Shown here one piece after another: positions 4,411 to 26,027 of a stretch of DNA of 27,817 nt (its first letter is position 1; each line of letters begins with the position of its first letter). A model generated the notes under the pieces. The model saw nothing but the letters and a program-made list of their open reading frames with translations. It ran no database searches and was not told where the DNA came from. This stretch comes from a virus, in IMG/VR virus record IMGVR_UViG_3300030104_006230, positions 1 through 27,817 of that record. One strand, given 5' to 3'. A program made the translations under genes and the position numbers.

Positions 4411-5930
4411 ATGGCTATTATTACCAATACCGCGACTCGATACGGTGTCAATTCACTAGCTGAAGATTTCTCTGACATCATCTATTCGATCTCGCCCACA
4501 ACCACGCCTTTTATTTCGAACATGAGTCGAAGAAGGAAGGCAACTAACACAATTTTTGAATGGCAGATTTGAGAGAGTAGATCTGAATGTTGGTAACAGC
4601 ATATAGAAAACTGGGTGAATTGCGGGAAAATCCTAACGCACAGGCGAGGACAATCCGCAGCCAATCTCGACATGGAGGCATACAAAGCCGAGGGGTCGAG
4701 CAGGTTCAGAGACTAGGTGGTGACGAAAGAATAACCCGCCCAAGAGCGCCCAGCCCCCTAAAGTTAGTTTCTAGGGGTGATGATATAGTCCGAACTGCAA
4801 GGGACAACTTGCAGAAGGTGCGGCTAAACTCCGCATCGATAACAGAATTGGATTCACTCGCAAGCGCAGCAAGCAACGCGCAAATTGACGGTGACGATTT
4901 AAGTTCATTCACTGCAATTACGGCGACCACTAAGCTTAGTAACGTTACGATGATTAGCCGTAAAGATGCAGTGATTGCAGACAATTTAACGGGCCCTATC
5001 GAGCAAAAAGGATATCGTTCCCTCCTCAGTTACGAAATCGTAAAAAAAGGAAATGAGCTCAAGCGCGATCAAGAGTTCAATTTAGTAGGGGTCAACGTAG
5101 CAGCAGTCTCTGGAGCCGCTGGCACGGCGCGTAAAACTGCCTCGCTTTCTGCTTGGCTAACTTCAAATGTTTCTCGAGGAACTGGCGGAGCATCAGGCAC
5201 ATTATCGAATGGTATGCCGAATGCTGCTGCCACTGATGCGTCAGCGGGAAATATGCGAGCCTTTACCGAAACAATTTTGAAGGCCGTAATTCAGTCAACC
5301 TGGAGCGCGGGTGGTGAGCCTCAGTTCTTAATGACCGGGCCATTCAATAAGCAAGCTGTCAGTGCCTTTAGTGGTATTGCGAGCCAGAGGTACCAGGCTC
5401 CAAGTGATAGTCCTACGACGATCATTGGTGCAGCAGACGTTAACTCAAACATAGGCGTCGCCGCGTAGGAATGCGCGGGCAATAAGGTGGTGAACTCAGT
5501 GAACATCTCAAGACAGACAATACTGAGCCAAGCTCGCGAAAGCGAGAAGGTGCAACGACTATCCCGAGAGGGAGTAGGGCCAAGCGGCTCGAAGCGCCAC
5601 CCATCCAGAACGGATGAAGATATAGTCTCATCTGCGTGGCGACACGCAGCAGCCAAAAAAGGCGGGAACAAATTAGCGATTTGTTTTGAAGAAAAAAGCT
5701 ATATGAGTGACTTTGGGACTTTGCAAGTTGTCCCCAATAGGTTCAGCAGGGAGAGAGATGCTTATCTCATTGATCCCGACATGGTTGAGCTCGTCACCTT
5801 GCGTGACATGGCAGTGACCGAACTGGCTAAAACTGGTGACGCTAGTAAGTTCATGACTCTTGTAGAGTATGGCTTGCAAGTGAACAACGAAGCTGGCCTC
5901 GGCATTGCAGCGGACTTGACGACAAGCTGA
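4411..5930 (+). CDS. Major capsid protein, SU10-type, gene split by two group I introns
   Basis: The gene reads as three exons: 4411-4569, 4851-5440 and 5699-5930, together 981 bases or 326 residues plus stop. Exon 1 gives MAIITNTATRYGVNSLAED and ends FEWQI; exon 2 starts DSLASAASNAQIDGDD and ends GAADV; exon 3 starts with the rest of the Val codon and gives YMSDFGTLQVVPNRF. Joined, this reads through the conserved FEWQxDSLA and DVYxSDFG segments of the SU10 major capsid family (Pfam name DUF5309/SU10), at the usual length. AGGAG at 4399-4403 is the ribosome site. Without splicing, a TGA occurs as the first intron codon after exon 1, leaving a 53-residue stub. Exon 2 and 3 are each in an open frame with intron sequence, so gene finders will report two false starts at 4587 and 5487. 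Confidence 0.88.
4570..4850 (+). ncRNA. Group I intron 1 in the capsid gene (281 nt)
   Basis: Pairings found by eye: P1, exon CAGATT 4564-4569 with internal guide GATCTG 4580-4585, putting T4569 opposite G4580 as the splice-site U.G; P2, TGTT 4588-4591 with AACA 4595-4598; P3, CTGGGTG 4611-4617 with CGCCCAG 4747-4753; P4, TGCGG 4621-4625 with CCGCA 4655-4659; P6, CTCGA 4666-4670 with TCGAG 4696-4700; P7, GACTA 4711-4715 with TAGTC 4786-4790; P8, CCCCTA 4755-4760 with TAGGGG 4772-4777; P9, CTGCAAG 4795-4801 with CTTGCAG 4808-4814; a further hairpin TGCGG 4819-4823 with CCGCA 4831-4835. The intron ends with G4850. GTTCAGAGACTA and GATATAGTCC are the classic P7 halves of phage introns. There is extra sequence between P7 and P3', as in subgroup IA. 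No homing endonuclease gene is present. Confidence 0.92.
5441..5698 (+). ncRNA. Group I intron 2 in the capsid gene (258 nt)
   Basis: Pairings found by eye: P1, exon GACGT 5436-5440 with guide GCGTC 5455-5459, T5440 opposite G5455 as the U.G pair; P10, intron ATAG 5451-5454 with exon 3 CTAT 5699-5702, directly adjacent to the guide; P2, CCGCG 5461-5465 with CGCGG 5474-5478; P3, GGTGG 5486-5490 with CCACC 5597-5601; P4, CTCAGT 5495-5500 with ACTGAG 5522-5527; P6, CTCGC and GCGAG at 5533-5546 closed by a GAAA tetraloop; P7, GACTAT 5557-5562 with ATAGTC 5622-5627; P8, CATCC 5602-5606 with GGATG 5612-5616; P9, CTGCGTG 5632-5638 with CACGCAG 5643-5649 closed by GCGA. The last base is G5698. Extra hairpins between P7 and P3' (TCCC-gaga-GGGA) suggest subgroup IA. 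No endonuclease gene. Confidence 0.92.
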
Positions 5931-20225: not shown

Positions 20226-21473
20226 ATGCCAAAAGCGCTTTCAGACTTACAAGTAAAAAATTTAAAAAAATCTGGCAACTTTCGTTGCGCCCCGAGCCTC
20301 TATCTTTATGTAGAAAATAATAAAAACGCTACAAAAAAACAGTGGCGTATCCGCCAAACAATCGACGGCAAACGCAAGTGGATTTACATTGGCTCTTACC
20401 CGGCAATCTCTCCCAAACAAGCTCGAGCAAGAGCAGCCGAGCTCCTGAGCTCCGACCAAGCGCCGCAGGAAGTTTTACGCGAACAGAAACAAAAGAAAGT
20501 TGCGAGCGCCAGGAGGACTGAAAAGAAAGTTACTTCCTTTGCAGTGGTTGCCGAGGACTACATTAAAAATATTAAACGCCCGGTTTGGAATGATCGAGGC
20601 CGAAGCGAACAGTCCTGGCAGAACACTTTGAACAGTTACATCTTGCCAGTGATTGGTAAGAAAGAAATCGAGGACATCTATCCCGACGATGTTGTGAAAG
20701 TTCTAAAACCGATCTGGACCACCAAGCACGAAACAGCAGTTCGCACTCGATCTCGAGTAGAAAACATAATCGACTACGCTATCGCAAAAGGCATTAGCGA
20801 AAAAAGGAATCCAGCGCAGTATAAAAATTTGCTCGAGAATCTTTTACCTAAGTTCAAGCCAGAAATAAATCACCATGCAGCATTACCCTTCGATGAGCTC
20901 CCCGGCTTCATTTCTGAGATTTGGGACAGAAAAAGCGGCTCGTACAGTGCCCTAAAATTGATTTCGCTTACCCAAGTACGCAGTAATGATGCGAGAGAGG
21001 CCGTCTGGGACCACTTCGATTTGCAATCTGGCGTCTGGATGTGCCCGATTCAAAAACTTGGCGGGGAAGTGCATAAGCTACCAATTCCTAAAAGATTGCT
21101 CTGGTTACTTCAGGAAATGAAAGAGTATGCGCAAGATGAACGATTGTTTCCTGGCAGCGGCAAGAATAAATTTATCAGTAGCAACTCGCTCGATAAATCT
21201 TTAGACGTTTTCTCTCGAACTGATGCCCTGGGCAAACGAATAACCATTCATGGTTTTCGATCTACGTTCATGGATTGGGCCACGGCCACTGGTGCAGGAA
21301 CCCGCGAAGATGCAGATCGCCAACTCGGGCACCGAGAGAGAAACGCGGTCCTCGCCGCTTACATGAGGACCGATCTCTTCGACAGGCGCGTTAAATTAAT
21401 TCAAGAGTACGAGGACTTTGCGTTTTCTGATACTGCGTTTTCGATCCACGAATCAACTTCTTCCGCGATGTAA
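20226..21473 (+). CDS. int: Tyrosine-type integrase (P4/DUF4102-like)
   Basis: 415 residues. The N-terminus (LYLYVENNKNATKKQWRIRQ, then KWIYIGSYPAISPKQARA) is the arm-binding domain of P4-like integrases. The catalytic domain shows the expected residues: R252 in LTQVRSNDARE, a lysine in QKLGGEVHKLPIP, H342 and R345 in IHGFRSTFMDW, H369 in QLGHRERN, and the nucleophile Y379 in AYMRTDLFDRR. It joins phage and host attachment sites, here probably at a serine tRNA gene. The gene lies directly downstream of the attP core and faces the excisionase tail to tail, with 73 overlapping bases at the 3' ends. Integrases of this type commonly use tRNA genes. Confidence 0.92.
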   Translation: MPKALSDLQVKNLKKSGNFRCAPSLYLYVENNKNATKKQWRIRQTIDGKRKWIYIGSYPAISPKQARARAAELLSSDQAPQEVLREQKQKKVASARRTEKKVTSFAVVAEDYIKNIKRPVWNDRGRSEQSWQNTLNSYILPVIGKKEIEDIYPDDVVKVLKPIWTTKHETAVRTRSRVENIIDYAIAKGISEKRNPAQYKNLLENLLPKFKPEINHHAALPFDELPGFISEIWDRKSGSYSALKLISLTQVRSNDAREAVWDHFDLQSGVWMCPIQKLGGEVHKLPIPKRLLWLLQEMKEYAQDERLFPGSGKNKFISSNSLDKSLDVFSRTDALGKRITIHGFRSTFMDWATATGAGTREDADRQLGHRERNAVLAAYMRTDLFDRRVKLIQEYEDFAFSDTAFSIHESTSSAM

Positions 21474-25063: not shown

Positions 25064-25627
25064 TTATTTTATAAGCTTTAATGCTTTAAAAGATTTAGGA
25101 TCAAAAGCATCTAAAAAGTCTTTGTAACCTTGCCATTGTTCATAAAGATTCTTGCCTCTTGTGTTGTAAGTGTCTGCAAAAAGCATGTCGGCGTGTGGCA
25201 GTGTGAAGACTCCGCCATCTTCGGCGAATTTCCGCCACACCGTCTCCATGATGTCGTCGTAATCTACTGGAACGCCAACTGAAAACCACTCGCTACCGCA
25301 AAACCACACCAGGCCAGGCATCACTCTATTGCCATTCTCATCAATGTTGGCCCCTAGATAGACCCTTGGGAATTTGAAACGCCGATCATCTGTCCAAACC
25401 GGAGACTTTTTTATTGCTCTCTCCACCATTGGGTGGTTCAAAAAAGTCTCGCAAAAACGGCTTTCTGATTCTGTGTGATATTCGGCGAGGTGCATCAATT
25501 CCAAGCCATATCTGGTTGTATGGCATGGAAAAACCTCGCCCATAAAAACATGATTTATAAAACTTTTAACTAATACTGAAATCCTTTTGTCGATTTGCGA
25601 TTGAGTGTTAAGAATTGCTAGTCCCAT
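25064..25627 (-). CDS. Unknown protein (187 aa) co-transcribed with the repressor
   Basis: ATG at 25627 preceded by AGGAG eight bases upstream; it overlaps the repressor 3' end by 20 bases, so the two are probably expressed together in the lysogen. The protein is soluble, rich in Trp, Phe and His (PHADMLFADTYNTRGKNLYE, VWFCGSEWFSVGVPVDYDD, HPMVERAIKKSPVWTDD). No domain is recognised. Position and likely lysogenic expression suggest a gene useful during lysogeny, such as superinfection exclusion or a partner of the repressor, but the sequence does not decide this. A small perfect hairpin, ACGAGG-act-CCTCGT, lies close to its ribosome site. Confidence 0.65.
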   Translation of the reverse strand: MGLAILNTQSQIDKRISVLVKSFINHVFMGEVFPCHTTRYGLELMHLAEYHTESESRFCETFLNHPMVERAIKKSPVWTDDRRFKFPRVYLGANIDENGNRVMPGLVWFCGSEWFSVGVPVDYDDIMETVWRKFAEDGGVFTLPHADMLFADTYNTRGKNLYEQWQGYKDFLDAFDPKSFKALKLIK

Positions 25628-26027
25628 TGTTTCTACTCCTACGAGGACTCCTCGTCTCTACGTCTTGAGCTTTCAAAAGCTCTTGCTTGATTGTTATTAA
25701 TATTTTGTAGCGATCATCACTCAAAAGATCGACGTCGTACCAATCGTTTATGCGGCCATCAATGTGCTTTTTAGCTGGTCCTACAGAGAAAATCTCGTCC
25801 AGCAAAAAGCTCGGCTCGACGTTAAATAGGTTGCAAAGTGCTGCAACGAACTCTCTTCGGGGCGGCGATCTTTCAGGTACATCTTTTTCCCACTTGGCTA
25901 AAGCCGTGTGAGAAATATCTACTTTATGTTCTTTTTGCAAAATTTCTGATAACTCCCTTAGCGAGAGACCACGTGCTTTTCGCAAGTCTCTGAGTCGGTC
26001 ACAAAATAAGACTCGTTGTTTCGCCAT
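25608..26027 (-). CDS. CI-like phage repressor, XRE-family helix-turn-helix
   Basis: 139 residues. N-terminal HTH of XRE type: FCDRLRDLRKARGLSLRELS, then helix with DISHTALAKWEKDVP (residues about 9-52), and the following NLFNVEPSFLLDEIF is usual in such repressors. The remaining ~70 residues are short and carry no visible LexA-type Ser/Lys peptidase motif, so it is smaller than lambda CI and may be controlled by another route than RecA-stimulated self-cleavage. It faces the Cro-like gene across a 169-base control region, the standard arrangement of a lysis-lysogeny switch. Confidence 0.8.
   Translation of the reverse strand: MAKQRVLFCDRLRDLRKARGLSLRELSEILQKEHKVDISHTALAKWEKDVPERSPPRREFVAALCNLFNVEPSFLLDEIFSVGPAKKHIDGRINDWYDVDLLSDDRYKILITIKQELLKAQDVETRSPRRSRNNGTSNS

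Follow-up and report, generated by a model that had tools for sequence, protein, structure and literature searches.

Group I introns favour positions that are conserved in the proteins of their host genes (PMC2814812), and trans-acting nucleases that mobilise introns lacking an open reading frame (ORF) are established in phages (PMC3984707, PMC6083498). The closest cases in phage structural genes are described in PMC3706429, which also cites a capsid-gene intron for lactococcal phage Tuc2009. There, a probable group I intron interrupts the capsid gene of mycobacteriophage LittleE and has intronless relatives; like the intron analysed here, it is preceded by U and ends in G. Its splicing was proven by RT-PCR, whereas splicing of ours is predicted, and unlike ours it is approximately 819 bp long, carries an endonuclease ORF, is the only intron of the gene and belongs to another phage group. 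The BAKA intron resembles ours in being 265 nt long, ORF-less and located in a structural gene, and its splicing was shown; it differs in lying in a tail gene, and the account consulted mentions no conversion track for it. Here, we analysed intron 2 of the major capsid gene in a viral contig of 27,817 nt (the window, that is, the whole stretch of DNA examined). With a probability of about 0.87, we regard it as a group I intron that splices itself, has no ORF of its own, parasitises capsid genes of the SU10 type and is spread by homing, the nuclease likely acting in trans.

When 4570-4850 and 5441-5698 were taken out of the window, a single open frame of 326 aa was obtained on the plus strand. 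It is composed of exon 1 (4411-4569, codons 1-53, aligning to the intronless contigs L003-L005), exon 2 (4851-5440) and exon 3 (5699-5930, from YMSDFG to the stop codon). Pieces of this frame matched SU10_MCP (PF17236; E 6e-31 for exon 2 and 1e-21 for exon 3), and the gene lies between an upstream SU10-type portal gene and a downstream SU10 adaptor gene. Purifying selection acted on it across the intron 2 split, with dN/dS of 0.15 versus L005 and 0.10-0.17 per exon. Scanned against Rfam with Infernal, the window as a whole gave just two matches up to E = 1, each covering the full RF00028 model (gathering score, 50). One, at 4560-4814 (85.8 bits), marks intron 1 (4570-4850, 281 nt, of a different lineage); the other, at 5431-5649 (70.2 bits, E 3.9e-16), marks intron 2 (5441-5698, 258 nt), which has no homing endonuclease ORF.

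L003, L004 and L005, all IMG/VR viral contigs, encode the same 326 residues without interruption, at 93% protein identity. Their DNA reads GACGT/CTATATG at the intron 2 site (slash, insertion point) and is also continuous through the intron 1 site. Because these intronless alleles align exactly, both splice junctions of intron 2 are fixed independently of the RNA model. The original prediction had placed a group I intron at 5441-5698, splitting a conserved DVYxSDFG segment, and this was right to the base, the junction lying in DVYMSDFG; it had also named comparison with intronless coat genes as one way to overturn the claim, and the claim survived, as L003-L005 align across the junctions. We designated this insertion point site A. 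Another, site B, is located six nucleotides downstream in the same DVYxSDFG motif of SU10 capsid genes. The introns at both sites all follow U, end in G and restore D-V/L-Y-x-S in frame.

A frame of 147 aa with a GTG start (5487-5930) opens inside intron 2, in frame with exon 3; intron 2 contains one in-frame stop only, and its sole open frame continues into exon 3. The 147-aa frame is present in the site-A copies (including L097 and L101) and in L095. It is absent from the distant site-B introns, and was therefore dropped as a coding candidate. Gene callers would split such coat genes and give false capsid fragments.

The core order P3, P4, P6, P7, P8 is present in intron 2, and the full-model RF00028 match, the helices and their covariation bear out its earlier assignment to group I. 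All helices are on the plus strand. P1 (5436-5459) pairs GACGU at 5436-5440 with GCGUC at 5455-5459 and places U5440.G5455 at the 5' splice site; a U at the 5' exon end pairing with a G of the guide sequence was found in the window and in 21 of 21 copies examined. The final intron base was likewise G in all 21 copies examined (G5698, the omega-G, in the window). P3 joins 5486-5490 with 5597-5601 and is followed by P4 (5495-5500/5522-5527) enclosing P5 (5506-5508/5515-5517), by P6a with its GAAA loop (5533-5537/5542-5546), and by P7, the guanosine-binding helix, formed by GACUA at 5557-5561 and UAGUC at 5623-5627. P8 (5603-5606/5612-5615), P9 with a GCGA loop (5632-5637/5644-5649), P9.1 (5652-5654/5661-5663) and P9.2 (5667-5673/5679-5685) complete the fold. 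The predicted P1 with its U.G pair and both tetraloops were thus confirmed. Two extra hairpins, 5563-5572 and 5577-5590, lie between the P7 5' strand and the P3 3' strand: P7.1 (5563-5565/5570-5572) and P7.2 (5577-5581/5586-5590). We take such a pair to be a mark of subgroup IA, which would place intron 2 in that subgroup.

P10 is formed in the window by AUAG at 5451-5454 and CUAU at 5699-5702 of exon 3. The 4 bp originally proposed therefore stood, but the idea that P10 by itself fixes the 3' splice site did not hold for the family: the pairing between guide sequence and 3' exon ranges from 2 to 5 bp across relatives (the window and L101 have 4 bp, the remaining site-A copies 3 bp, and L095 and L100 2 bp), and it is the empty-site alleles that fix the site.

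We evaluated covariation in seven aligned copies (site A and L095). For these rows, which are related to one another, and a structure drawn from the window copy, the 66 proposed pairs held in 97.8% of cells, compared with at most 46% when the partners were slid, and 12 pairs had changed on both sides, compared with a mean of 1.8 expected from shuffles. The double changes sit in P7.2 (two compensatory changes), P8, P9 (four pairs altered on both sides in relatives), P9.1, P9.2 and one P10 pair. These counts are supportive of helices under selection and do not represent a probability. From the structure and the intact exon frame, we infer that intron 2 undergoes guanosine-initiated self-splicing. 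The transcribed intron would fold into the P3-P9 core with guanosine bound in P7; the RNA would be cut after U5440, held by P1; and exon 2 would be joined to exon 3 after G5698, with P10 helping, which would restore the 326-aa capsid protein. A dead intron, flanked by capsid halves translated as separate pieces (ORFs 4587-5468 and 5487-5930), would fit the GTG start inside the intron and the retention, in L097 and L101, of the 147-aa frame that it opens. This is highly improbable, as the ribozyme helices are preserved by compensatory changes and purifying selection acts on the flanking exons as a single protein; moreover, a single in-frame stop in 86 codons is no great rarity by chance.

Site A is occupied in eight other phage contigs (L060, L071, L072, L074, L075, L096, L097 and L101), several of which are near-identical to each other and so represent fewer independent phages than contigs. 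Their introns are 91-93% identical to intron 2, with compensatory base-pair changes, whereas their capsid proteins are only about 60% identical to that of the window, and the exon DNA of L060, L071, L072, L074 and L075 is 58-65% identical. A gap of the intron 2 type in the protein match was seen in 5 of the 80 best capsid relatives.

The exons around the intron revealed gene-conversion tracks. Away from the intron region, L072 groups with the intronless L008 and L009; from −84 to +9 it is of the donor type (L071) at 28 of 28 informative sites, and it is of the recipient type (L008) at −96 to −87 and again from +12. By its sequence this mosaic is a natural co-conversion track, carried by a single 4.3-kb metagenomic contig, for which a chimeric assembly is conceivable. 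L071 itself, compared with L013, an intronless near relative with 96% overall identity, has a differing block running from −39 to the junction. In the window, the last four upstream sites that distinguish L101 from L005 (−15 to −6) all match the intron-bearing L101, and the 3' exon is of the L005 type immediately after the junction; these four sites point to 5424-5440 (plus strand) as a probable short 5' co-conversion tract. In all three records, L072, L071 and the window, the exon patch is longer on its upstream side. Had a nuclease initiated these conversions, the cut would be expected within the interval common to them, about −24 to +4.

Because near alleles lack the intron, genes only about 60% identical carry a copy about 92% identical, and L072 bears a co-conversion track, we conclude from these comparisons that intron 2 was transferred horizontally between phages into one and the same site by gene conversion, with flanking exon sequence co-converted. 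In view of the 33% core identity of the two introns, this movement was independent of intron 1. A fixed, immobile passenger inherited vertically with the capsid lineage would agree with the lack of an endonuclease ORF and with several contigs sharing the intron at one site; however, it is very unlikely in view of the intronless closest relatives, the contrast between exon and intron identity, the L072 track and the difference between L071 and L013. Under homing, the intronless allele would be broken near the insertion site during a mixed infection, and repair of the break from the intron-bearing allele would copy the intron together with part of the adjoining exon. The nested alleles (empty-site, donor and recipient) would then constitute a natural homing record for a nuclease-less intron, and they reduce the stretch of exon where the cut of the missing nuclease is to be expected.

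Neither the 27.8-kb contig nor the site-A records yielded a candidate for HNH_3, HNH, GIY-YIG, LAGLIDADG_3 or Endonuclease_7; these contigs are fragments, and the search comprised those five families. No free-standing nuclease gene adjoins the capsid gene in the window, L097 or L101. Since the gene order around the capsid gene is identical with and without the intron, there is no room for an adjacent one. Because intron 2 lacks an endonuclease ORF and the five families were not found in the contig, mobilisation in trans is the likeliest mechanism. The nuclease would be a free-standing enzyme or that of another phage, as in collaborative homing; as the contig is a fragment, it may be encoded in an unseen part of the genome or by another phage. 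The phage is probably temperate, judging from a tyrosine-type integrase (20226-21473) and a helix-turn-helix regulator (25608-26027) in the window. A genome scan for its host yielded only capsid relatives at 34-65% identity in mixed bacterial records.

A scan for related intron cores gave 93 stretches, 76 of them distinct after removal of duplicates. Capsid matches and PHROGs profiles assigned the largest share to head genes, comprising the SU10 family plus four or more further major-head PHROGs; second were DNA polymerase genes, and helicase, RNA polymerase and tail sheath genes gave single cases. The collection and the search pattern are not a fair sample, and these shares express a tendency rather than a measured enrichment. 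In blastn searches, core stretches about 70-90% similar were found in 409 phage records, including the td and nrdD introns. In L093 (837-2381), a pair of group I introns lies at the beginning of a head-protein gene or close to it, adjoining ORFs weakly similar to endonuclease VII-type nucleases. In L085 (9109-10972), a different major head gene has a related intron at its extreme end, and an ORF resembling HNH/endonuclease VII comes next.

Site B is occupied in L095 and L100; in L088, L094 and L099; and in L115, L131, L153, L158, L172, L128 and L169. Further SU10 capsid introns lie near residue 100 (L117, L161 and L157). The guide sequence of every intron at sites A and B fits its own site. 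L095 (2223-2498) and L100 (core near 2614) contain sister introns 79-82% identical to that of the window, inserted at GTATACGT/CTCAGAT and guided by GCGUA, not GCGUC; the six-nucleotide shift may have been made possible by an ACGTCT-like tandem repeat of the exon. In the core tree, the window copy groups with L095 and L100, beside introns of another capsid family (phrog_371). As the remaining site-B introns fall on separate branches, site B has probably been occupied more than once.

These neighbouring sites bear on an endonuclease-free route, in which the intron spreads by reverse splicing into capsid mRNA followed by DNA copying. Sister introns six nucleotides apart in one motif, each with a fitting guide, two related introns in one gene in L128 and L169, and the failure to find an endonuclease would suit such a route. 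The long, asymmetric donor-type exon tract of L072 is instead the signature of DNA break repair, and we consider reverse splicing unlikely and homing the preferred reading. A broader proposal, which we regard as speculative and rather doubtful, is that one small ORF-less lineage has specialised on capsid genes, hopping between unrelated capsid families and neighbouring DVYxSDFG sites by a route that is trans-acting or needs no endonuclease, and that each short move was followed by re-tuning of the guide.

Intron 1 shares only 33% identity with intron 2 over the aligned core, in agreement with the earlier claim that the two differ and that a recent duplication is unlikely. No relative seen bears introns at both window sites. 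Because of these two observations, two independent insertions, as also proposed originally, are the likely history of the window gene. A search of viral contigs with a DNA pattern gave no copies of intron 1, and blastn gave short matches only, in six phage records. L100 also has a two-intron capsid gene, its first intron (about 1675-1940) lying approximately eight codons downstream of the window intron 1 site. In the SU10-type capsid genes of L128 and L169, two related group I introns occur near residue 100 and at site B, which suggests movement within one gene. Intron 2 could by analogy be a within-gene duplicate of intron 1, as both are group I introns of the same gene; the 33% core identity, together with the grouping of intron 2 with introns of other phages with high support in the tree of cores, leaves this reading a negligible probability.

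Intron 2 is a known kind of element, and what stands out is the unusual clarity of its mobility traces. Our search of the open-access literature turned up neither a major capsid gene with two introns nor a description of this intron in SU10-type genes. Most descriptions of phage introns concern DNA-metabolism genes; within our sample, this lineage occurs no less often in coat genes, a location that requires one of the most abundant late messages to be spliced. Compared with known systems, the psbA intron of S-PM2 (PMC6083498, PMC3984707) is likewise an ORF-less group I intron at a conserved site of a phage gene and is mobilised in trans; its free-standing nuclease, F-CphI, is proven and encoded by an adjacent gene, whereas none was found near the window capsid gene. 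Phage Twort, as cited in PMC6669764 and PMC8541194, also has several group I introns in a single gene; unlike here, that gene is not the major capsid gene, and the host phage is unrelated. The T4 td/nrdD-type introns and those of phage DNA polymerase genes resemble intron 2 in their cores, at about 70-90% similarity; unlike intron 2, they often carry or adjoin endonuclease ORFs and reside in DNA-metabolism genes.
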